A DNA stretch of 60,687 bases, taken from positions 1 to 60,687 of the forward strand of contig CAMJAP010000006.1 in NCBI GenBank assembly GCA_946403625.1, read 5' to 3'. The notes below the pieces were generated by a model. That model did not search any database, was not told the origin of the DNA, and saw nothing but the letters and a program-made list of their open reading frames with translations. Made by a program: the position numbers and the translations under genes. This document shows, piece by piece, positions 32,230-50,599 of the stretch (within the stretch, counting starts at the first letter, position 1; every line of letters begins with the position of its first letter). This stretch comes from an uncultured Lachnospiraceae bacterium (GTDB lineage Bacteria; Bacillota; Clostridia; Lachnospirales; Lachnospiraceae).

Positions 32230-33549
32230 ATGGATACCAGAGGACTTTGTCAGTACTCTGATTCAGTCAATGAACTGCTGGCGAGATACGGAGTAAAATT
32301 CGGCATCTACAAAAATAATCAGTTTCGGGAACAGTTATTTCCGTTTGATACGATCCCGCGCGTGATTGGTGCAGAGGAGTTTTCGTTTCTGGAAAAAGGG
32401 TTAAAGCAGCGTGTTCAGGCGTTAAATCTGTTTATCAAAGATATTTATCATGACAAAAAGATCATTAAAGACGGGATCGTACCGGAGGAGTTTGTTTATT
32501 CGGGAAGCGGTTATCTGACGCAATGTGAAAAGGTGATGCCTTCCAAAGAAATCTACACGCATATTTCCGGGATCGATCTGGTACAGGCGAAAGATAAAAG
32601 CTGGTATATCCTGGAGGACAATCTGCGTGTACCGTCGGGAGCATCCTATCCGATGATCGCAAGAGATTTATGCAGAAAATGCTCGCCGCAGACCTTTCAC
32701 GGGAATCATATCGAGGATAATCGCAACTATGCAAAACTGCTGCGTAAAACTTTTGACTATGTGAATACCGGCGGACATACCGTGATCCTGACACCGGGAC
32801 GATTTAACGCAGCATACTTTGAGCATTCGTTTCTGGCGGAGCAGACCGGGGCGCATCTTGCCAGCGGACACGAACTGACGGTGGAAAATGATCATCTGTA
32901 TTTTATCGATTATTCCGGAAAGAAGGAACAGGTAGGAGCGGTGTATCGCCGTATCTCCGATGAGTATCTGGACCCGATGAATTTTCTGGAAGAATCCGTG
33001 ATCGGTATACCCCATATCTACGATGTGTATCGTAAAGGAAATGTAGCGCTTTTGAATGCGCCGGGAAACGGTGTGGCGGATGATAAAGGGATTTATTATT
33101 TCGTACCGAAGATGATCAAGTATTATCTCGGGGAAGATGCGATCCTTAGCAATGCGCCGACATACCTGCCGTTTTATCCGGAAGATATGGATTATGTACT
33201 GACGCATTTTGATGATCTGGTATTAAAGGATGTGGCAGAGGCCGGCGGGTACGGAGTAGTCTTTGCCAATAAGATGAGCAAACAGGAAAAAGAAGATTTT
33301 ATCGCATTGTTGAAAGCGGAACCGAGACGGTTTATCGCGCAGGAAGTGATCGACTTTTTGGATATCGATATTTTGGAACAGGGCGAATTTGTTCCGAGAA
33401 AAGCCGATCTGCGAGCGTTTGTATTAATGGCAGATGAACCGATGGTATGGAAAAGCGGACTGACGCGTTTTTCCAGAAATCCGGATTCCTTTATCGTCAA
33501 TTCGTCACAGGGAGGAGGTTTTAAAGATACATGGGTATTATCTCAGTAG
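32230..33549 (+). CDS. Circularly permuted ATP-grasp ligase (type 2)
   Basis: 439 aa of the CP-ATP-grasp family (DUF404/DUF407). Recognisable blocks: FPFDTIPRVIGAEEFSFLEK, QRVQALNLFIKDIYHD, SGIDLVQAKDKSWYILEDN, VLKDVAEAGGYGV and FVLMADEPMVWKSGLTRFS. ATP-grasp enzymes join a carboxylate to an amine through an acyl phosphate; this family was predicted by comparative genomics (Iyer, Aravind and co-workers, from memory) to form peptide-like bonds together with alpha-E and transglutaminase partners. Exactly those partners follow, with 19-bp and 4-bp overlaps. Product unknown. Confidence 0.9.
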   Translation: MDTRGLCQYSDSVNELLARYGVKFGIYKNNQFREQLFPFDTIPRVIGAEEFSFLEKGLKQRVQALNLFIKDIYHDKKIIKDGIVPEEFVYSGSGYLTQCEKVMPSKEIYTHISGIDLVQAKDKSWYILEDNLRVPSGASYPMIARDLCRKCSPQTFHGNHIEDNRNYAKLLRKTFDYVNTGGHTVILTPGRFNAAYFEHSFLAEQTGAHLASGHELTVENDHLYFIDYSGKKEQVGAVYRRISDEYLDPMNFLEESVIGIPHIYDVYRKGNVALLNAPGNGVADDKGIYYFVPKMIKYYLGEDAILSNAPTYLPFYPEDMDYVLTHFDDLVLKDVAEAGGYGVVFANKMSKQEKEDFIALLKAEPRRFIAQEVIDFLDIDILEQGEFVPRKADLRAFVLMADEPMVWKSGLTRFSRNPDSFIVNSSQGGGFKDTWVLSQ

Positions 33550-34196
33550 AACATTCTGACCGGCTGTACTGGCTGGGAAGATACAGTGAACGGGTTTATA
33601 CAACATTAAAGATCTTTGCGGATCGTTACGATTCGATGATCGATCTGGAAGAAGATGAATATGCGGATTTTTGCGAACGACAGGAGATCCCGAATATTTA
33701 TCTGTCTGCCGCGGATTTTGCAAGGCGTTATTGTTTTGACGAAGAAGATCCCAACTCCATTATTTCGAATCTGACCAGAGCGTATGATAATGCGATCGTA
33801 CTGCGGGAAGAGATCGGCAGCGTTACGCTCTCCTACATTCAGATGGCGGTATATGCGATGAACAAAGCAAAGCAGTCGGACGCACCGCTTTTGGAGTTAC
33901 AGCGGGTGAGAGACAATATCGTTGCATTCTGGGGGATTGTAGATGATTCCGTGGATGATGAACATGTACGGAGCATTATCAAGCTCGGAAAACGGATCGA
34001 GCGAATTGATATTTATGCCCGTATGCATCTGGATAAAAAGGAGATGAAGAGAGAGATCGTCAAACTCAATCGAAGGATCGACAGGACCGGATTACATTTC
34101 AGCAGCAAGCGACTGGCGCATATCAATTATCTGATCGAAGAAGATGTGCTGGATCATGAAGAACTGGTACAGGAGATCGAAGCGTTACTGGAATGA
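33531..34196 (+). CDS. Alpha-E domain protein (DUF403)
   Basis: 221 aa, nearly all helical, opening SVEHSDRLYWLGRYSERVYTT, the signature of alpha-E proteins. Shorter than the usual 300 or so residues. It contains a central insert (EEDEYADFCERQEIPNIY) and ends in RLAHINYLIEED. No catalytic residues are known for the family; it is a constant companion of CP-ATP-grasp and transglutaminase genes. The start lies 19 bp inside the preceding gene, behind GGGAGGAGG. Confidence 0.88.
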   Translation: MGIISVEHSDRLYWLGRYSERVYTTLKIFADRYDSMIDLEEDEYADFCERQEIPNIYLSAADFARRYCFDEEDPNSIISNLTRAYDNAIVLREEIGSVTLSYIQMAVYAMNKAKQSDAPLLELQRVRDNIVAFWGIVDDSVDDEHVRSIIKLGKRIERIDIYARMHLDKKEMKREIVKLNRRIDRTGLHFSSKRLAHINYLIEEDVLDHEELVQEIEALLE

Positions 34197-35005
34197 AACG
34201 GCTGCGTTTTCATTATCGGATGAAGATCGATTTTGATGTGCCGGTCAAAGACCATCGCTTTACGCTGAAATGCCTGCCGAAGGATAACAGCAGACAAAAG
34301 ATCCACAATATTGCTTATGAAGTATTTCCGAATCGCTTTATCAGCCGGTCCTATGATGCTTTCGGAAATGAATGTATATATGGTTTGTGCGCGGAACAGC
34401 ATAATGCATTCCTAATCGATGTAACGGGAGAAGCAGAATGCGGGCGGGCAGAGTATGAATCGGAAGATACGGAAACCGATGCCGCAATCTTTCGATATCA
34501 GACGGATCATACAAGGCCCGGTGCCGGAATACGGGAATACCATAAAAAAATGCGAAAACTTTTTGCGGATGTAAAAAGTTCAAAGGATCGCCTGGCTGCG
34601 GCGATGTATTTTATGCAGCGGTTACATAAAGATTATGAATACCAAAGCGGCTCGACGCAGATCGCGACTACCGCAGAGGAAGCCTTTGTTCAGGGATGCG
34701 GTGTATGTCAGGACTATGCGCATATCCTGCTTTCGTTGTTGCGTATGGAGCATATTCCATGTCGGTACGTTACGGGAATGATGCTGGGGGAAGGTTTATC
34801 CCACGCATGGGTAGAACTCTTTGACGGTGCAAAGTGGATCGCATTGGATCCGACCAATGAAGTCGTGATCGGTGAAGATCATATCCGCATTGCAGTCGGA
34901 AGAGATTATCGGGACTGCCTGATCAATCAGGGAATGTTTACCGGATGTAACGGGAAGGCAAAGCAGAACCAGAATATTTGTGTACAGGTTGAGGAGATAA
35001 GGTAG
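34193..35005 (+). CDS. Transglutaminase-like protein
   Basis: 270 aa cytoplasmic papain-fold protein. The Cys-His-Asp triad is visible: GCGVCQDYAHILLSLLR, LSHAWVELFDG and ALDPTNE. The N-terminal region (1-100) is the beta-rich Bact_transglu_N-type part. Such proteins cleave or form amide bonds, here presumably in the product of the ATP-grasp ligase. ATGA overlap with the alpha-E gene implies tight coupling. Confidence 0.9.
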   Translation: MKRLRFHYRMKIDFDVPVKDHRFTLKCLPKDNSRQKIHNIAYEVFPNRFISRSYDAFGNECIYGLCAEQHNAFLIDVTGEAECGRAEYESEDTETDAAIFRYQTDHTRPGAGIREYHKKMRKLFADVKSSKDRLAAAMYFMQRLHKDYEYQSGSTQIATTAEEAFVQGCGVCQDYAHILLSLLRMEHIPCRYVTGMMLGEGLSHAWVELFDGAKWIALDPTNEVVIGEDHIRIAVGRDYRDCLINQGMFTGCNGKAKQNQNICVQVEEIR

Positions 35006-42587: not shown

Positions 42588-42658
42588 CAACTTCAAAATT
42601 TTGAAGTTGGTCACCTCCATAATATATGTGTAACCGAAAACGCATATATTGTGGAGGT
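42588..42658 (+). repeat. Island leader element, copy 1
   Basis: A 22-bp perfect palindrome (centre CTTCAAAATTTTGAAG, 42591-42606), 10 nt, CCATAAT, then a dyad: 42613-42630 pairs with 42641-42658 over 18 positions (two wobbles) around loop TAACCGAAAA. The right arm holds the Shine-Dalgarno GGAGG, 7-8 nt from ATG 42665, so folding would hide it. Confidence 0.8.
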
Positions 42659-42664
42659 ATTTTT

Positions 42665-43168
42665 ATGAGAAACATTCTTATTTCTAAGCCGGGAACCAAA
42701 TTGATTAATGAGTGCTATCCGCTGCCGTGGCGTTACGATGGCACCTGCTTTAACTTCCGGGGGCCGGATACGCTGGTCTGTGATAATGAATTGGATACGA
42801 TCGGCGATCCGCTGGATGTACAGGAGCTGGTGATCCGCTCGGATCTGAAGGACTATTCGTTCATATCTGAAATGAAAAATCTGAAGCGGCTTTACATTTA
42901 CAAAGGAAAACGGGTAAAGGATCTGTGTTTTCTGGAAGATCTGGTGAGGCTGCGCCAGATTCTGGTTGCATATTCCCAAGTTACATCTGTGGAAAGTATC
43001 AACAGGCTTTTTGAGAATAAAAAGAAAGCATCGGAGCAGGGAAATTTGAACCGGCCTGACAGCGGTATGGAAGGGATCTATATCCATTCGAGTAGGGAGG
43101 GGATTAAAGATGAGAAAATAGACCGGAAGGGGATTTATCTGAGGGAAGTCTTTCTGATCGTATCTTAG
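42665..43168 (+). CDS. Small LRR-like protein of unknown function
   Basis: 167 aa, cytoplasmic. The middle (about residues 55-105) has leucine-rich-repeat-like spacing (VQELVIRSDLKDYSFIS, MKNLKRLYIYKGKRVKDLCF, LVRLRQILVAYSQVTSVESI). The flanks have no motif that I know, and the C-terminus is basic. The start is fixed by the GGAGG site inside leader element copy 1; the in-frame ATG at 42626 lies within the hairpin and is rejected. A protein-binding role fits; partner unknown. Confidence 0.7.
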   Translation: MRNILISKPGTKLINECYPLPWRYDGTCFNFRGPDTLVCDNELDTIGDPLDVQELVIRSDLKDYSFISEMKNLKRLYIYKGKRVKDLCFLEDLVRLRQILVAYSQVTSVESINRLFENKKKASEQGNLNRPDSGMEGIYIHSSREGIKDEKIDRKGIYLREVFLIVS

Positions 43169-43176
43169 GAGCCGGA

Positions 43177-43209
43177 CTTCGAAATTTTGAAGGTGGATAT
43201 TACCATAAT
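43177..43209 (+). repeat. Island leader element, copy 2 (no hairpin)
   Basis: CTTCGAAATTTTGAAG, 10 nt, CCATAAT: palindrome and spacing are kept with one change, but the right arm of the hairpin is absent. Located 42 nt upstream of the next gene. Confidence 0.75.
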
Positions 43210-43250
43210 GTAGAGGAAAATGAGCATTTACACAAAGGAGGGGCGGGAAG

Positions 43251-44069
43251 ATGAGAGTTGATTTTAATGAGAATCCGGAAGCGATGGTCTTGGATATGAT
43301 CCGTTTCTTAAAAGATTGGGGATTGTGGAGAGATGTAAATATCTTTGCCGGTGGGAGGAGATACTCCTATGAAAAGGGCTCTTGTTTTCAAGGGATCACG
43401 GATGTGGCATATGAGGAAAATATCGATCCGGAAGAATGGATGAAGGGGCCGGTTGGAGAAGGGGAGAGACTGAGATGGGAAAGTTTTGCCAATCCGGAGC
43501 ATCTGTTTGATATGACCTATGAAGGACCGTTGCATATGCTGCTTAACTATGATGAATATGCTCCGGATCGGGAAGAGATTTCAGCGCGGTGTTGGAAATA
43601 TATAGAAGAAAACACCGACCTGATCGAAGAGTATATTTTTGAAAATTATGATGTGAGCAGCCGGGAAGAACTGGCATATGAAATGTGGGCAGGTATCTTT
43701 GATAATCCGGAGATCTGTTACTGGGATCCGCTGGAATTTGATACCTGGGAGGAATATCTGGAACTGTTCTATGGAGATGATGAAGAAAGCAACCTGGCAT
43801 TTCTGCAGTTTGATACCTATGAAGCGTATCGTGAGGCGCGGGATGGAGGGATCGACCGGTTTGTCTCCGAACATGCAAAAGAAATTCAGATAGCCTGGGA
43901 GCGTATGACGGAGGAGGCGAGAACGGCGATCAAAAGGGAAGAAAGGGAATTGCCGTATGAGATCAGAGATCATGTGTATGAGGAATTTGCCCGGATTTTT
44001 GAAAGATATGGTCTTTACCACGATTATTGCTTCCGCTGGTCGCTGACAAGTTATCGGATAGGTGATTGA
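43251..44069 (+). CDS. Acidic protein of unknown function
   Basis: 272 aa, strongly acidic and rich in Trp, Tyr and Glu; no signal peptide or membrane segment. Notable strings are LRWESFANPEHLFDMTYEGPL and YCFRWSLTSYRI. I recognise no family. Excellent RBS (AAAGGAGGGGCGGGAAG). Leader element copy 2 lies upstream, so it likely belongs to the same regulon as the LRR-like protein. Confidence 0.7.
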   Translation: MRVDFNENPEAMVLDMIRFLKDWGLWRDVNIFAGGRRYSYEKGSCFQGITDVAYEENIDPEEWMKGPVGEGERLRWESFANPEHLFDMTYEGPLHMLLNYDEYAPDREEISARCWKYIEENTDLIEEYIFENYDVSSREELAYEMWAGIFDNPEICYWDPLEFDTWEEYLELFYGDDEESNLAFLQFDTYEAYREARDGGIDRFVSEHAKEIQIAWERMTEEARTAIKREERELPYEIRDHVYEEFARIFERYGLYHDYCFRWSLTSYRIGD

Positions 44070-44107
44070 AAAGTGATGGGGTAGAGAAAAGCTTTGGAAA
44101 ATTGTGT

Positions 44108-44137
44108 TTGCATAGGAAAGTATAGGTGTTATACAAT
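44108..44137 (+). promoter_or_regulatory. Possible promoter of the nucleotidase/sigma-WYL operon
   Basis: TTGCAT, 18 nt, TACAAT, about 30 nt before ATG 44168. Unlike its neighbours this transcript lacks the palindromic leader element. Confidence 0.4.
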
Positions 44138-44167
44138 AAAAGAATCCGGGAGAAAGGGGTGCGGCGT

Positions 44168-44680
44168 ATGATCTATTTTGATATGGATGGAGTTCTTGCA
44201 GACTTTGACAGAGGGGTGGCTGAACTGTGCGGTATGAGGCAGTTGCAGCCGGGAGAAGTCCGGACGGATGAAGAAGATGCGCGGATGTGGGAAAAGATCC
44301 GTGAGGTAGGAAATTTTTATAACAAGCTGGAACCTATGCCTGGCGCGGTAGAGATGTTCCGGGAAGTATATGATGAATTTGGAGCCGGGTGCGAGATCCT
44401 GACGGGTATCCCAAAACCGGAGCGCGGCATCGTTACCTCTGCGGAGGATAAAGTGGCGTGGACCAGACGGATCCTGTCTGATAAGGTGAAAGTGAATACC
44501 GTAGCCAGGAAGGATAAGAAACTGTTTTGTACCGGACCGGATAGCATCCTGGTGGATGATCTGGAGAAAAATATCACCGAATGGAAGGAAGCAGGCGGTA
44601 CGGGTATCCTTTTCCAAAATGCGGAGCAGGCGTTGGAAGAGATCCGGAAATATACGGATGGGGAGAAAACTCATGGATAA
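44168..44680 (+). CDS. HAD-superfamily 5'(3')-nucleotidase-like protein
   Basis: 170 aa. DMDGVLADFDRGVAEL at the N-terminus carries both Asp of the phosphoaspartate motif in the form seen in 5'(3')-deoxyribonucleotidases, and ILVDDLEKNITEWKEAGG is the matching motif IV. Expected activity is dephosphorylation of a nucleotide or related phosphate. ATG 44168 is preferred (MIYFDMDG; AAGGGG 8 nt upstream) over GTG 44126. Its last 8 bp overlap the start of the sigma-WYL gene, so the two are translationally coupled. Confidence 0.85.
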   Translation: MIYFDMDGVLADFDRGVAELCGMRQLQPGEVRTDEEDARMWEKIREVGNFYNKLEPMPGAVEMFREVYDEFGAGCEILTGIPKPERGIVTSAEDKVAWTRRILSDKVKVNTVARKDKKLFCTGPDSILVDDLEKNITEWKEAGGTGILFQNAEQALEEIRKYTDGEKTHG

Positions 44681-46409
44681 ATCGAAATTAACAAAAAAAG
44701 ATGAAAAAGAATTTCAGCAAAAGGAAGAGATAGTCCGGGAACTGATTCGGAGGATGAGGGCTGAAAGCGATAATGAGGCCATGGAAAAACTTTTCAGTCT
44801 CTATGATTCCTATGTGCGTGGACTGGCGAGAAAAAGGCTGCGTAATTATGTTCTTCCCGAAAACAAGCGAACAGAGATGGAAGATGAATTGTATCAGAGA
44901 GGATGGATCGGCTTCATTCGGGCATTACAAAAATATAATTTGGATGATTCGAGTAAGGCATCATTCTCTACATTTTCATATATATACATCTATTATGAAA
45001 TGCAGGATGAGTTAAAGATCCAATTTAATGCACTGGGGTTGGTAGATTATTCTTATGATGACAGAGTCGTCCGAATGGAAGATGATATATACTCCGATGC
45101 GTTGGCAGGAGAAATAGAAGATCCTCACAGAGATGAAGAAACGGAATTTACAGTTCCGGCAGCAGAAGAAAAGGGAAAGTATGCAAATGAGAGACAGGCG
45201 CTCCAGATCCTGAAGGTGCTTAAGTATTTTTCGGATGAGGAGCATAGTTTTTCTGCCAGGGAACTTGCGAATAAGATGACCTGGTACACCAGTATGGTAT
45301 ATGGAAATTGTACGCCGGTTGTATCTGATGAAAATGCAATGCGTACATTTCAAAAAACATTAGCAGAAGTACTTATGGAGGTCAATTCGTCGCCGGATAA
45401 ATACCATCAGCCGTCCGATTTCCGGGTTAAGTATGATGGATATGAAAACAATGAACTGCAAAAGAAGATCACTATGCAGAATGAGGGAGCCGTAAAAATC
45501 CAGAGTGCCAAAGTGATCAACGGGTTATATTATGATCATGTTTTTTCAAAAGAGGATCTGGACGATATGATTCAGATGATCTGCTTTTCGGATATGATCT
45601 CTGAAGAAAAGAAAAAATTATTGATCAGAAAACTGATCGGAGAAGGGAGCCCGTTTTACAAATCTGTTTTCTGGGATGGGGAAAGCATGCGGTTCAATCC
45701 CAAAGCGATTTACGGCCGTTTCAGTGGAAGAAAAAATACAGACAGAATGAATCTGATCGTAAATCTAAAGAAGATACAGGAAGCACTGAATAGCCTGGGG
45801 CAGATCTCCTTTGTATTTAACCGCTATCGGGAAAATAAAGAATTGACACCAACGGATAGATCGTTACGGAAAAGGCATAAGCTCAGCCCATACCATCTTG
45901 TGGTTTACCACGATAACTACTATTGTATTGGTCTGCTTGAGAACGAAAGAAAGGTTATGCACTATCGTGTGGATCTGATGTCTGATATTGAGATCGTCCG
46001 TGACGAGGAGGGGCGGATCATTCCGATTGAGCTGACAGCATTCGAAGGCTTACCTATTGCAAATGCAGAGTGGAATCCTGAAAAATATATGGCGGAACAT
46101 TTGAATATGGCTTATGATGATCCGAGAGAGATCTTGGTAAAGATTGCGTCTTCCGGAAAGGGGTATACCATCCTGCATGATTGGTTTGGAAATCATTTTG
46201 AGAAAGTACGGGAAATCACTGAAAAGGATGAAGCGGGAAATGAAGAGAAGTACGATATCGTAAAGGTAATTACATCTCCTGCAATGATCGTACACTGGGC
46301 AATGCAATATGGCACTGCGGTGGAGATCATGGATGAAGAGATCCGGGAAAAGATTCGGGAAGAAATTAAGAAAGTGGGGGAGAAATATGGACAGAGAAGC
46401 ATTGGCTAA
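44673..46409 (+). CDS. Sigma-70 region-2 / WYL-domain fusion regulator
   Basis: 578 aa. Residues about 36-114 match sigma-70 region 2 (LFSLYDSYVRGLARKRL; DELYQRGWIGFIRALQKY; FSTFSYIYIYYEMQDEL), the part that binds core polymerase and the -10 element. Residues 165-250 look like a winged helix (FSARELANKM). Residues 285-330 match the linker of Firmicute WYL regulators (FSKEDLDDMIQMICFSDMIS). Residues 363-444 are a WYL domain (LSPYHLVVYHDNYYCIGLL; HYRVDLMSDIEIV) and 484-565 the WCX extension. No sigma region 4 is visible. WYL domains sense ligands, often nucleotides, in defence and stress regulators. It is a natural candidate to control the palindromic element in this island. Confidence 0.82.
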   Translation: MDKSKLTKKDEKEFQQKEEIVRELIRRMRAESDNEAMEKLFSLYDSYVRGLARKRLRNYVLPENKRTEMEDELYQRGWIGFIRALQKYNLDDSSKASFSTFSYIYIYYEMQDELKIQFNALGLVDYSYDDRVVRMEDDIYSDALAGEIEDPHRDEETEFTVPAAEEKGKYANERQALQILKVLKYFSDEEHSFSARELANKMTWYTSMVYGNCTPVVSDENAMRTFQKTLAEVLMEVNSSPDKYHQPSDFRVKYDGYENNELQKKITMQNEGAVKIQSAKVINGLYYDHVFSKEDLDDMIQMICFSDMISEEKKKLLIRKLIGEGSPFYKSVFWDGESMRFNPKAIYGRFSGRKNTDRMNLIVNLKKIQEALNSLGQISFVFNRYRENKELTPTDRSLRKRHKLSPYHLVVYHDNYYCIGLLENERKVMHYRVDLMSDIEIVRDEEGRIIPIELTAFEGLPIANAEWNPEKYMAEHLNMAYDDPREILVKIASSGKGYTILHDWFGNHFEKVREITEKDEAGNEEKYDIVKVITSPAMIVHWAMQYGTAVEIMDEEIREKIREEIKKVGEKYGQRSIG

Positions 46410-47043
46410 AGCGCTTAAGGAAAAGAATGATGATTTATTTGATTTATCGAAATTTGGATATGAAGATATAAAAATAGAAAATTGCGAGATAGTTGAGACA
46501 GATGGCCATGTTATAATCAGACCGCATAGAAATAGAAGAAAGAAAAAGTATATATGGCAATGCCAGATTTGCAATCGGTTTTTCTTGGGAAGGAAAGATG
46601 ATACAAATATTTATGTAGGAAATTGTTTCAAAAAACTTGATGTGGATGAGCGGCAAAGATTATATAGCACGGATTTTAAGTGGGAAAACAAAATAGATGA
46701 AAATAGATTGGTAAGATACCAGGTAGGCGAATTGTTAGAAAATATTGAGAAAAATAACATGAACGGACCGGGAGTATGGGCGTTGTGGCATGGTAAAGAG
46801 CTTGTGCAAGTTGCAAGAAATAAGAATATTTATGGTGAAATATGGGATGATTTTCGCAAGGGAAAAGGAAAAATAAACTACACACAATATGAGGAAGGAG
46901 GGGAAATTGTAATTATTTCAAATAAAAATGATTTTTATGCAGAATTACAATATGCGCAAGAGCATAGAGCTCGGTTTTGGAATCCGAGTTTTGCAGAATG
47001 CAAGCAAATAGGAATAATGAAGAATTTGAGAGATTCGCATTAA
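46387..47043 (+). CDS. AT-rich CxxC protein of unknown function
   Basis: 218 aa, overlapping the sigma-WYL gene by 23 bp. CQICNRFFLGRKDDTNIYVGNCF gives a possible Cys2-Cys metal knuckle (read in pieces: CQIC, then GNCF). The segment GPGVWALWHGKELVQVARN followed by NIYGEIWDDF faintly recalls a GIY-YIG nuclease but lacks its YIG and Arg. Base composition is clearly more AT-rich than neighbours, suggesting recent acquisition. Function unknown. ATG 46387 follows GTGGGGGAGAAAT. Confidence 0.7.
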   Translation: MDREALAKALKEKNDDLFDLSKFGYEDIKIENCEIVETDGHVIIRPHRNRRKKKYIWQCQICNRFFLGRKDDTNIYVGNCFKKLDVDERQRLYSTDFKWENKIDENRLVRYQVGELLENIEKNNMNGPGVWALWHGKELVQVARNKNIYGEIWDDFRKGKGKINYTQYEEGGEIVIISNKNDFYAELQYAQEHRARFWNPSFAECKQIGIMKNLRDSH

Positions 47044-47101
47044 TGATAGTTGTTGATGTGTTGCGATTGAGTAGATTTTGACCAATAAAGTATTTTTGGC
47101 G

Positions 47102-47176
47102 CTTCAATATTTTGAAGTTCTCCATCTCCATAATATATATGTAACCGATTCAACATATATTATGGAGATTTTTTTA
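47102..47176 (+). repeat. Island leader element, copy 3
   Basis: CTTCAATATTTTGAAG, 10 nt, CCATAAT, then a hairpin: 47124-47142 pairs with 47153-47169 (2-nt bulge) around loop AACCGATTCA, followed by a 7-T run. The stem has T-A where copies 1 and 4 have C-G (ATCTCC/GGAGAT versus ACCTCC/GGAGGT), a compensated change. The hairpin plus T-run also looks like a terminator. Confidence 0.8.
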
Positions 47177-47192
47177 GGAAGGAGAATGCGCT

Positions 47193-47915
47193 GTGGCAAC
47201 TTATGTATTATCCGATATTCACGGACAGTATGAACTGTTCCTGGCTATGCTTAAGAAGATTGATCTGAAGGATGAGGATACGCTGTATGTACTGGGAGAT
47301 GTACTCGACAGGGGACCTTATTCTATCCGGACAATCTTAAAACTTATGGAGATGCCAAATGTGATATGCCTTATCGGTAATCATGAACTGATGGCGCTGG
47401 ATTGTCTGAAATTTCTGATGCAGGAGATTACGGAGGAATCCATTAAGAAACTTGATAAAGAAACAATGGAGAATTTTATCACATGGATAAAGCGTAACGG
47501 CGGACAAAGGACCATGGATGAATTCCGCGCACTTAGCAGAGATAAACAGGAGGAGGTTATAGAGTTCCTCGAAGATTTTCTGATATACGAAGAGCTTACC
47601 GTTGCCGGAAAAGATTATCTTCTTGTTCATGCCGGGCTGGGCGGGTACTATCCCGGAAAGGATATAGAGGATTATTCGCTTAAGGAGCTTATCTGGGACA
47701 GGGCGGAATATGACATACAATACTTTCCGGATAAGTATGTGATTACCGGACATACCCCTACCCAGGGGATTGCCGGAAATCCCAGGCCGGGATATATCTA
47801 CAGAGAGAAGAATCATATTGCCATAGACTGCGGTTGCTACCGCCGCGGTGGTCGTATGGCGACAATCTGTCTGGATACCGGCGAAGAGTTTTATGTATCA
47901 AAGGAAGAATTGTGA
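47193..47915 (+). CDS. PPP-family metallophosphoesterase
   Basis: 240 aa calcineurin-like phosphatase with the complete bimetal site: SDIHGQ, GDVLDRGPYS, GNHELMAL, LVHAGLGG and TGHTPTQG. Closest in layout to bacterial PrpA/PrpE and symmetric Ap4A hydrolases, so substrates could be phosphoproteins or dinucleotides. GTG start at 47193, 8 nt after GGAAGGAG; unlike copies 1 and 4 this Shine-Dalgarno lies outside the leader hairpin. Cytoplasmic. Confidence 0.92.
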   Translation: MATYVLSDIHGQYELFLAMLKKIDLKDEDTLYVLGDVLDRGPYSIRTILKLMEMPNVICLIGNHELMALDCLKFLMQEITEESIKKLDKETMENFITWIKRNGGQRTMDEFRALSRDKQEEVIEFLEDFLIYEELTVAGKDYLLVHAGLGGYYPGKDIEDYSLKELIWDRAEYDIQYFPDKYVITGHTPTQGIAGNPRPGYIYREKNHIAIDCGCYRRGGRMATICLDTGEEFYVSKEEL

Positions 47916-47978
47916 ACAGAGAAGGAGAATGATCAGAGAGTATGATCAATGATTCAGCGGATATGGAAACTAACGGAA

Positions 47979-48047
47979 CTTCAAAATATTGAAGTATATC
48001 ACCTCCATAATATATGTGAAACCGAAAACGCATATTTTATGGAGGTG
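47979..48047 (+). repeat. Island leader element, copy 4
   Basis: CTTCAAAATATTGAAG, 10 nt, CCATAAT, then a 19-position stem (48000-48018 with 48029-48047, one mismatch and one wobble) around loop AAACCGAAAA. The right arm contains GGAGG, 7 nt from ATG 48053, as in copy 1. Confidence 0.8.
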
Positions 48048-48052
48048 TTTTT

Positions 48053-48853
48053 ATGGAGAACATGATGAAAGAGTATCTTGGGGAAGCGTACAGCAAGGAT
48101 CATCTGAAGAATTTCTGCCGGTACTGGATGAAGGGAAGGGAGACGAGGCCGAGATGGGAGGATTATACTGACAAGAATCTTTTTTATAAGGATTATGATG
48201 AATGGAGGCGGAAGAATGATCTGGATTGCCTTTATTTCAAAGGAGATCTGAGAGCGGATACGCTGATGAGCGCCTGGACGCCGATCAAGTGGGTGGCGGA
48301 TTGCCTGAACCGGGAATATGGAATGAAATTTTACAAGACGACCAAAGAAGACCCGGATCATTATCTGAGATTACTTGCTGAAGACGGGGATGCATATCTT
48401 CCGCCGAAACATGAACTGGTGCAATTGCTGGATCGATTTCTTGAACTTGCAGAAGAGCGTTGTAATTATATCCTGCTTCCGCACAGGGATATGAATACAG
48501 CCAGGTACAATTGTGTAGTGAATGGTAAAAAGGTGGGAATATTTGATGAAGTACCTGCGATGCTTTATCATGTCTTTGACAAAGAGTGGTTCGGAAAGTA
48601 TTTCGAGCAGGCGGATGAAATGAGTGGTGTGAAAAATACTTTTTCGCTCGATGTGGTAAAATGGATCAAACGCGAAAGGCTGGAAGCGGGATTTACAGAT
48701 GGGATCATCGATCAGGAGCATGTGATACCTCTTATTAAGGATCAACCGGCCGGGGAACCCAAATGGCTGTCGAAGGAAGAAGAGATAAAGGAAGCGCTGG
48801 GATATATGATAAATCTGTTGGAATCCCGGAAGAACGCGATGGAAAAAGGATAA
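48053..48853 (+). CDS. Protein of unknown function in the palindrome-linked island
   Basis: 266 aa, soluble, mixed alpha/beta, rich in aromatic residues. Noticeable strings: HLKNFCRYWMKGRETRP, DCLYFKGDLRADTLMSAW and YLPPKHELVQLLDRFLELAEERC. No motif lets me assign it. Its start is set by the GGAGG in the hairpin of leader element copy 4. The next gene is a second metallophosphoesterase, 57 nt downstream, with its own ribosome site. Confidence 0.72.
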   Translation: MENMMKEYLGEAYSKDHLKNFCRYWMKGRETRPRWEDYTDKNLFYKDYDEWRRKNDLDCLYFKGDLRADTLMSAWTPIKWVADCLNREYGMKFYKTTKEDPDHYLRLLAEDGDAYLPPKHELVQLLDRFLELAEERCNYILLPHRDMNTARYNCVVNGKKVGIFDEVPAMLYHVFDKEWFGKYFEQADEMSGVKNTFSLDVVKWIKRERLEAGFTDGIIDQEHVIPLIKDQPAGEPKWLSKEEEIKEALGYMINLLESRKNAMEKG

Positions 48854-48910
48854 GCGGGCGGGAGAAATTCCGGCCCTCAAAAAAATAGCGGCTTTGAAGG
48901 AGGTTTGGAT

Positions 48911-49647: not shown

Positions 49648-49690
49648 CATATTGGAGTGATAAAATACATGTGAAAATAAGAGGATGAGC

Positions 49691-50599
49691 ATGAAAAATT
49701 ATGAAATGAGTCGCGAGGAGAAGGATTTTCTGAAGGATTATGACATCTCCCGTTATGACCGTCCATCGCTGACGGCAGATATGGCGGTATTTGCGATCCT
49801 GACGGCGGAGGATGCGACGGAATACCGCAAGGATCCGAGAAAACAGCTGGGGGTTCTGATGATACGCAGGGGAACCTTTCCTTATAAAGACTGCTACGCT
49901 CTGCCCGGCGGATTTGCAAGAAAAGACGAGAGCATCGAAGAGACGGCATTCCGCGAACTGAAAGAAGAGACTTCTCTGGACAGTGCGTTTCTGGAGCCCT
50001 TCGGAATGTTCAGCAAACCCGGAAGGGATCCGCGCGGATGGATCATTTCCCAGGGATTTCTGGCATTGGTGGATGCGGAGAAATATCAGATCCGTGCCGG
50101 CTCGGATGCCTGGGAAGCCAAATGGTTCTATATTGATGTGGAACAGGAAGAGATGAAAAAGCATGTCCGAAAAGACAGTGCGGAGATCTGCACCCGGTAT
50201 TGTCTGAAACTGGAGCGGGACGGGGAAGTGCTGTCCGCGCTGGTGGAAGAAAGACGCACTTTTCAGAGCCATCATGAAACCGTGGTGTATGAGGTTCTGG
50301 AGGACGATGGATTTGCCTTTGATCACGCGGAGATCATCATTCGTGCTTATCTTGCATTGAGAGACCGAACGGAGCAGTCCGGACGCATCGTATTTGATCT
50401 GATGCCGGAGTTCTTTACCCTGAATACGCTGCAGGAAGCGCACGAGATCATCCTGGGAGAGAAATTATTAACCCCCAATTTCCGCAGAAAGATGGCACCG
50501 TATGTCATCGAGACGGATGCGATGGTGACCGGAGCGGGACATCGTCCGGCGAAACTCTTCCGCAGAAATCTGGAAGCATTCTATAATATGGGGAATTGA
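49691..50599 (+). CDS. Nudix hydrolase with C-terminal winged helix (NrtR-like)
   Basis: 302 aa. The Nudix box GGFARKDESIEETAFRELKEE (one base-pair-like unit: GGF..E..REL.EE, about residues 75-97) is complete, so hydrolytic activity on ADP-ribose-like substrates is possible. The C-terminal 80 residues (FFTLNTLQEAHEIILGEKL, PNFRRKM) resemble the winged helix of NrtR regulators of NAD metabolism. It could be an enzyme, a regulator or both; no nad genes adjoin. ATG 49691 follows AGAGGATGAGC. Confidence 0.88.
   Translation: MKNYEMSREEKDFLKDYDISRYDRPSLTADMAVFAILTAEDATEYRKDPRKQLGVLMIRRGTFPYKDCYALPGGFARKDESIEETAFRELKEETSLDSAFLEPFGMFSKPGRDPRGWIISQGFLALVDAEKYQIRAGSDAWEAKWFYIDVEQEEMKKHVRKDSAEICTRYCLKLERDGEVLSALVEERRTFQSHHETVVYEVLEDDGFAFDHAEIIIRAYLALRDRTEQSGRIVFDLMPEFFTLNTLQEAHEIILGEKLLTPNFRRKMAPYVIETDAMVTGAGHRPAKLFRRNLEAFYNMGN

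Follow-up and report, generated by a model that had tools for sequence, protein, structure and literature searches.

The window analysed here is the whole 60,687-nt stretch of contig CAMJAP010000006.1 from an uncultured Lachnospiraceae bacterium (assembly of 3.5 Mb in 195 contigs, 99% complete), and it contains a gene island in which a two-part element, a 16-bp palindrome followed by CCATAAT, occurs four times (Table 1). We think it probable that these copies act as promoters of a single small regulon read by one protein, here called sigma-WYL, and that the hairpin into which some copies extend is a separable insulator against read-through transcription. This reading is built on sequence, namely the element, its conservation, its link to sigma-WYL, the dyad letters that vary with lineage, the domain make-up of the protein and the geometry of the hairpin; from these we infer start sites, DNA binding, a dimer, gating by a ligand, use of the protein's own region 2, and termination. 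An initial annotation of the same DNA had offered two models for the copies: a DNA module, with the palindrome as a regulator site and CATAAT as a -10 lacking a normal -35, and an RNA hairpin that hides the ribosome site or terminates. Comparison with other genomes supports the first model well, through the fixed spacing, the position before genes, the conserved start region, the co-occurrence with one regulator and the lineage-varying dyad; the likely regulator, itself encoded inside the island, had been missed.

The element and its position ahead of genes

The four palindromes lie where the initial annotation had placed them, with 0, 1, 1 and 1 mismatches in copies 1 to 4 to CTTCAAAATTTTGAAG, the reference for all mismatch counts, and rechecked coordinates put CCATAAT exactly 10 nt after each of them. 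Shuffled controls contained 0.5 palindrome matches on average and reached four in 1 of 100 shuffles. The genome-wide search that had been proposed, for palindrome-N10-CCATAAT, gave four forward and no reverse matches in the assembly, all four within the island on the + strand, and the reversed pattern gave none. Among 397 genomes of the bacterium's own family, this strict pattern was found in its own genome only, so relatives carry diverged forms of the element or none. A consensus scan detected no -35 match 16–18 nt from any of the four CCATAAT, and a standard sigma-70 promoter was rejected on that ground.

A search pattern derived from the window, CTTCNNNATNTTGAAG-N9..11-CCATAAT, was run against 84,980 genomes (as genome contigs) and against viral contigs, and it returned 23 stretches from the former and 8 from the latter. 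Five of the 23 carry CTTCAARATNTTGAAG with the exact N10 spacing: L020 (Eubacterium ruminantium), L022 (a Lachnospiraceae metagenome-assembled genome, MAG), L026, L038 (a Butyrivibrio MAG) and L040, where L numbers denote stretches or loci from other genomes and G numbers, below, genomes. All five contain homologues of island genes and none of the remaining 26 stretches does (tblastn with eight island proteins at E 1e-6, in the stretches examined); the other 18 genome-contig matches and the eight viral ones were set aside as chance after inspection and this homology check. In all, 37 elements were collected and 34 of them aligned. Three matches were dropped, L038:5732 and L062:6732 for their lower scores (the latter also has a spacing of 11) and L068:1556 as lying within an open reading frame (ORF) on the opposite strand; seven further rows were the opposite strand of palindromes already counted, and L063:13039 and L064:1472 were added to the set.

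The initial annotation had raised the possibilities that the motif falls at random inside genes or is not conserved in relatives. The elements in fact precede gene starts: in 31 of the 37 the predicted start has a Shine-Dalgarno sequence and start codon no more than 80 nt away, a frequency to be compared with 11% for 4000 positions drawn at random from the same strands, and a start codon with a Shine-Dalgarno sequence stands at +33 to +40 in 15 elements, as against 1.3% of random positions. Such a start codon is present at +21 to +245 in 36 of the 37, the exception being L061:11368, ahead of a split gene copy; there (L061:11368-11724) the element precedes a second copy of the nucleotidase gene described below, apparently split into two reading-frame pieces. 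An upstream gene is found within 400 nt of 26 elements, and in 18 the palindrome starts 0–24 nt past its stop codon.

The most conserved columns of the alignment are the half-sites around TTCA and TGAA. Within the predicted -10, ATA is present in all 34 aligned elements, and 33 of them have C at -12, a position where the preference of sigma-70 is for T. TG and AA are conserved at the predicted start.

Sigma-WYL as the candidate regulator

The likely regulator has a sigma-70 region 2 at about aa 8–115, a winged-helix-like part at about aa 173–240 (in a low-confidence model), a WYL domain at aa 365–441 and a weak, below-cut-off WCX match at aa 499–568. An alignment was made of nine such fusion proteins, that of the window among them, and a profile built on the N-terminal domains matched 73 PDB sequences (best 2.8e-9), and among the matches listed 60 of 60 were sigma factors. 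With Pfam at E ≤ 0.1, WYL was found in all nine proteins, Sigma70_r2 in eight and Sigma70_r4 (region 4) in none; the sigma70-ECF model, a general sigma-70 model, matched all nine at E ≤ 0.01, with the window's protein below that model's cut-off. SigI models matched at most four of the nine (best 3.6e-4), no better than other sigma models did, and no SigIC C-terminal domain was found, the C-terminal part being WYL in every case. The winged-helix-like part is suggested by the alignment and by the helices of the low-confidence model, and no Pfam helix-turn-helix match covers it in the window's protein. The modelled N-terminal helices superpose on the N-terminal domain of SigE (root-mean-square deviation, rmsd, 2.3 Å) and on domain 2 of sigma A with -10 DNA (rmsd 2.6 Å); for the whole model, SigB and DriD are among the top fold matches, all of which have E above 0.001, and PADLOC assigned WYL models to the protein. 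A protein search in viral contigs (29 stretches) had no relative among them.

The full-length fusion is encoded in 5 of the 397 family genomes at E ≤ 1e-30, and four others have a WYL protein without the sigma part. An element sequence model built from 26 elements hits 376 of the 397 at E ≤ 1, which was taken as noise; strong hits, defined as E ≤ 1e-5 by a cut chosen after seeing a gap in the list, occur in eight, the bacterium's own genome included. Relatives thus keep elements, though strong hits are in only these eight family genomes. All five fusion genomes are among the eight (Fisher p 7e-10, a partly circular figure, since the model was trained on elements from those five). Fusion loci found through the protein alone (L061–L064, L107 and L108) have elements in six of six cases, and when those found through elements (the window, L020, L022 and L026) are included the count rises to 10 of 10. 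No element was found at the four loci with WYL only, bar one weak L068 match inside a 779-codon ORF on the other strand. Eight elements found by the model were unused in its training, and the genes behind them encode a homologue of the protein at 48053 (L101:5804), calcineurin-like phosphoesterases (L101:6628 and L104:6168), a HAD_SAK_2 protein (L102:2096) and four proteins without a family assignment (L099, L100, L102:60 and L103). By these comparisons the elements track with one island protein, sigma-WYL.

A class-wide protein search in 391 genomes, a set that overlaps the 397, found the fusion in two genomes of another family (L107 and L108), both with nearby elements. These elements lie outside the training set and score 36.0, 25.8 and 20.2 bits, scores that random sequences of the same composition reached in 0 of 200 trials each (maxima 13.4 and 13.7). 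The two L107 elements, CTGCAAAATTTTGCAT and TTGCAGAATTCTGTAC, and the L108 element, GTATAAAATTTTATAC, all have the N10 spacing and CCATAA(T/G); in this second family the half-sites differ and N10 and CCATAA are unchanged. In the first L107 site, positions 3 and 14 are changed jointly and the outermost position is unpaired, and the second is less regular. As far as these few examples go, the altered sites fit a dimer site that follows its protein.

In the mechanism that we propose, CCATAAT would be the -10, and the palindrome, at about -39 to -24 with its centre near -31.5, would stand in place of a -35 element. Region 2 of sigma-WYL would contact core RNA polymerase as well as CCATAAT. The winged helices of the protein, dimerised through the WYL and WCX parts, would bind the palindrome at the site usually occupied by sigma region 4. 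A ligand of the WYL domain would switch the protein. Element 2 may drive the nucleotidase gene and the sigma-WYL gene together, which would be positive feedback.

A serious though unlikely alternative is that sigma-WYL is an ordinary WYL activator of the PafBC/DriD type, whose winged helices bind the palindrome and which assists RNA polymerase together with the housekeeping sigma factor, its region 2-like domain being a relic or a docking part. CATAAT is one base off TATAAT, and the low-confidence model has the WYL domain of DriD among its closest fold matches. PafBC itself, according to the accessible text of PMC11804915, sits between promoter DNA and domain 4 of sigma A and reads a -26 motif. 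Against this stand the C at -12, kept in all but one of the aligned elements, the sigma-type region 2, which the general sigma-70 model finds in all nine fusion proteins and Pfam in eight, and the lack of such elements at the four WYL-only loci.

Hairpins that overlap the predicted promoter

Three of the four window elements extend into a hairpin of 15–19 positions. Comparison with shuffled sequences agrees with the initial annotation in giving a hairpin to copies 1, 3 and 4 (z -10.3, -3.9 and -7.5, with 0, 1 and 0 of 200 shuffles folding as well) and only the palindrome and CCATAAT to copy 2, which folds no better than shuffles (z 0.0, 99 of 200 as good); each of the three helices in Table 1 was reached by 0 of 300 shuffles. 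Reading of the sequence likewise bore out that in copies 1 and 4 the right arm contains the Shine-Dalgarno sequence and that copy 3 has the compensated C-G to T-A pair.

In 9 of the 34 aligned elements a stretch further downstream pairs with the -10 region (p ≤ 0.01, 300 shuffles); no tail criterion was used in this test, and in eight of the nine, all eight at 0 of 300 shuffles, a T-rich stretch follows the helix. The ninth, L102:60 (p 0.003), pairs into coding sequence, lacks a T-rich tail and was not counted, and with L107:12390 the total of overlapping hairpins is 9 of 37 elements (three in G000, three in G357 and one each in G313, G330 and G528). Membership of this class was defined by a read-through folding energy of ≤-23 kcal/mol, at least 16 pairs, a left arm that begins before the predicted start and a T-rich tail; 15 elements were initially labelled overlapping, and L020:4261, L026:6008, L061:12991, L062:8217, L064:1472 and L102:2096 (energies -7.0 to -12.2) were omitted.

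In copies 1, 3 and 4 the left hairpin arm would be the -10 region itself. RNA started at the predicted promoter would begin near the loop and so lack the left arm and be unable to fold the hairpin. RNA running in from the upstream gene would fold the stem, followed by a run of U, and terminate, and in copies 1 and 4 such read-through RNA would have its Shine-Dalgarno sequence hidden as well. Since the hairpin would act on read-through RNA alone, each gene would be insulated from its neighbour; the hairpin probably silences only messages that enter from the upstream gene. Predicted folding energies for the read-through (95 nt) and promoter-started (72 nt) RNAs are -34.5 and -10.8 kcal/mol for copy 1, -24.7 and -7.6 for copy 3, and -27.3 and -9.9 for copy 4. 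For the nine hairpins as a set, the predicted energies are -23.5 to -36.6 kcal/mol with the left arm and -5.5 to -14.7 kcal/mol once it is lost (the lengths again being 95 and 72 nt); differences of this sort, mostly smaller, are also seen in elements that have no such hairpin.

By reading, the Shine-Dalgarno sequence lies within the right arm in five of the nine (copies 1 and 4, L063:13467, L101:5804 and L107:12390). Because it is in the stem in only these five and the T-rich tail is general, the common property of the class is that of a terminator-like hairpin for read-through RNA only. The second model of the initial annotation thus survives in its terminator-like hairpin, and in part in the hiding of the Shine-Dalgarno sequence; it is an addition to the promoter, present in 9 of 37 elements and not formable by RNA from that promoter, and not a rival to the first model.

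It is improbable that the hairpin is the main device, as an RNA thermometer, a riboswitch or a protein site that controls the Shine-Dalgarno sequence. Such a device would fit the strong folding and, in copies 1 and 4, a right arm that contains the Shine-Dalgarno sequence; against it, this sequence lies outside the stem in four of the nine, most elements have no such hairpin, and the left arm is the proposed -10, which leaves RNA begun at the proposed start unable to form the hairpin. No Rfam family was matched at the gathering score, and a known RNA family was rejected. Nor is the supposed loop a property of the hairpin. The initial annotation had taken AACCGA for a conserved hairpin loop, and it is present in three of eight hairpin elements, all three from the window, and in none of the five hairpins from other genomes. 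ACCGA is kept at the same place in 6 of the 26 elements without a hairpin, so AACCGA belongs to the start region.

A self-contained terminator-like hairpin with a T-rich tail is found in other elements, no more than about 40 nt downstream of the predicted start (L020:6114 and 5066, L022:4673 and 5623, L038:7979, L040:2640, L061:15148, L062:6747 and L100:2112). One example reads GGATTGC...GCAGTCC-TTTTTT, and that of L100 has the same layout in unrelated sequence. Thirteen elements were labelled as having such downstream hairpins and nine were counted, with L020:3672, L022:6212, L061:12403 and L061:11368 omitted because their hairpin lies at the start codon or extends past it. These hairpins may serve attenuation or antitermination of promoter-started RNA.

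Several observations weigh against the proposal that sigma-WYL reads these elements as promoters insulated by hairpins. Strong element hits in three of the eight genomes come without the full-length fusion, which is missing from G252 and G041 and represented in G330 by only a C-terminal fragment of the gene beside its elements, and L035, from an unrelated Bacteroidetes MAG and one of the 18 genome-contig matches set aside, has a perfect palindrome with CCATAAT at 11 nt and no island-gene homologue. Covariation in the dyad is modest in the 34-row alignment, where 13 of 500 shuffles reach the covariation score and 277 of 500 match the number of pairs changed on both sides, and among the three altered sites of the second family only GTATAAAATTTTATAC is perfectly palindromic. 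In the protein, the Pfam region 2 score is below its cut-off for the window (22.6, cut-off 24) and L061–L063, and above it for L026 and L064. The structure models are poor, with a mean pLDDT (predicted local distance difference test) of 51 for the full-length protein and 56 for the N-terminal part, and the Foldseek E-values of the sigma domain 2 matches are weak (0.18, 0.25 and 2.0; 0.18 for SigE and 2.0 for sigma A). The overlapping hairpin is absent from 28 of 37 elements, and insulation does not explain the nine whose hairpin lies 3′ of the start, where promoter-started RNA could form it too. A simple terminator scan of the island gave 8 sites where 6.4 were expected and, among the elements, called copy 1 only.

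Island genes and comparison with known systems

The coordinates of the elements and island genes are collected in Table 1. The most frequent targets are homologues of the 48053 protein, which follow 11 of the 37 elements, the window's included. Homologues of the nucleotidase, whose gene is without an element of its own in the window, have one in L020, L022, L061 and L062.

Table 1. Elements, hairpins and genes of the island and one nearby gene (window coordinates).
Feature	Coordinates	Strand	Remarks
Element 1, palindrome CTTCAAAATTTTGAAG	42591..42606	+	proposed dimer site, ~-39 to -24
Element 1, CCATAAT, proposed -10	42617..42623	+	predicted start near 42630
Element 1, hairpin	42613..42658	+	overlaps -10 and Shine-Dalgarno, then ATTTTT
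Gene behind element 1	42665..43168	+	167 aa, weak leucine-rich-repeat match below cut-off
Element 2, palindrome CTTCGAAATTTTGAAG	43177..43192	+	
Element 2, CCATAAT, proposed -10	43203..43209	+	no hairpin; predicted start near 43216
Gene behind element 2	43251..44069	+	272 aa, no Pfam family; homologues in L020, L022, L061, L062
NT5C-type 5'-nucleotidase	44168..44680	+	without own element
Sigma-WYL, proposed regulator	44673..46409	+	578 aa, encoded by 44673-46406
Gene after sigma-WYL	46387..47043	+	218 aa, function not assigned
Element 3, palindrome CTTCAATATTTTGAAG	47102..47117	+	
Element 3, CCATAAT, proposed -10	47128..47134	+	predicted start near 47141
Element 3, hairpin	47124..47169	+	covers -10, then TTTTTT; Shine-Dalgarno outside
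Gene behind element 3	47193..47915	+	calcineurin-like phosphoesterase, 240 aa
Element 4, palindrome CTTCAAAATATTGAAG	47979..47994	+	
Element 4, CCATAAT, proposed -10	48005..48011	+	predicted start near 48018
Element 4, hairpin	48000..48047	+	covers -10 and Shine-Dalgarno, then TTTTT
Gene behind element 4	48053..48853	+	266 aa, no Pfam family
NrtR-type winged-helix protein	49685-50596		close to elements

The NrtR-type protein encoded close to the elements raises another account, which we hold very improbable, that the palindrome is the operator of a repressor such as this one and CCATAAT a housekeeping -10. The lack of a -35 match at 16–18 nt stands against it, and no homologue of this protein was present in the examined locus DNA of 13 relatives, though one could lie elsewhere in their genomes; NrtR was rejected as a general regulator on this basis. 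That the copies are a small mobile repeat (MITE-like) which landed ahead of genes is extremely improbable and was rejected, since, despite inverted repeats and several copies within one island, all four window copies have one orientation, the gene-start position is far above chance with a fixed spacing, and similarity outside the core varies between copies.

Other genes recur nearby. A large protein with two AAA domains is encoded near sigma-WYL or element-led genes at L063:15149-18007 (by Pfam, and with AAA models in PADLOC), L064:6514-9357 and L102:2650-5037 (the last two by eye), and PADLOC gave the candidate family PDC-S10 for a phosphoesterase at 48905. HAD-domain 'Swiss Army Knife RNA repair' proteins are encoded behind an element (L102:2153-2632) and near one (L103:757-1248). 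Relaxase-like mobilisation proteins, recognised by eye, adjoin the module at L022:1-707 and L038:2246-3991, so the module may move between genomes. Upstream of the island, 32230-35005 is a gene cluster for circularly permuted ATP-grasp, Alpha-E and transglutaminase-like proteins. The regulon itself holds phosphoesterases, nucleotidases and proteins without assigned function, and from this content its signal could be connected with nucleotide stress, RNA repair or defence.

Control by sigma factors is treated as a layer apart from control by one-component regulators, and a fusion of region 2 to a WYL regulator, with a palindromic site fixed relative to the -10, would join both layers in one polypeptide. 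Its specificity would be traceable through evolution by distinct sites that each lie beside their own regulator (CTTCAAAATTTTGAAG, GTTCAACATATTAAAC, CTGCAAAATTTTGCAT and GTATAAAATTTTATAC), and a -10 that doubles as a hairpin arm would be a compact and testable insulation of neighbouring genes. The whole combination, that is, a ligand-gated sigma factor in one protein, a dimeric one-component regulator that replaces region 4, a promoter class whose palindrome has its centre near -31.5, and promoters that also serve as terminators, for read-through only, we put at somewhat short of an even chance. Such a fusion was not found in the literature searched, outside which most subscription papers lie, nor under 'sigma' in the accessible text of a 2014 CARF/WYL survey (PMC4012209).

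The nearest parallel is SigI of Bacilli and Clostridia, which, in the accessible text of PMC10575876, uses region 2 for the -10, has no region 4 and reads the -35 region through a winged-helix-like C-terminal domain, so that in sigma I factors region 4 is replaceable by an unrelated domain of that kind. The SigI structures 8i23 and 8i24 are among the fold matches of the sigma-WYL N-terminal model. Unlike SigI, sigma-WYL has as its C-terminal part a WYL-family regulator with a sensor domain, and its proposed upstream site is a 16-bp palindrome. Group IV (ECF) factors are described in the same part of that source as having regions 2 and 4, and in sigma-WYL no region 4 was found; the likeness is to ECF factors with extensions, in which, by the accessible text of PMC8999054, a sensor domain is fused to the sigma factor and not to an anti-sigma factor. 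PafBC and DriD combine a winged helix with WYL, as sigma-WYL would with its winged-helix-like part. At the -35/-10 region PafBC changes how sigma is used (PMC11804915, accessible text), and DriD is described in the available extracts as binding a 20-bp pseudo-palindrome; unlike sigma-WYL, both use the housekeeping sigma factor, and the accessible parts of these sources mention no fused sigma domain for them. For the hairpin, the leaders of the phage T4 genes e, soc, 49 and I-TevI offer a precedent, since the accessible text of PMC3014915 describes a hairpin over the ribosome site in longer transcripts and, for gene e, a promoter located in the hairpin's 5′ strand that gives hairpin-free transcripts, the same geometry as in the nine overlapping elements. 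Unlike T4, the elements described here would serve a bacterial regulon with another class of promoter, a T-rich stretch follows the stem, and the Shine-Dalgarno sequence is within the stem in only some of the nine.

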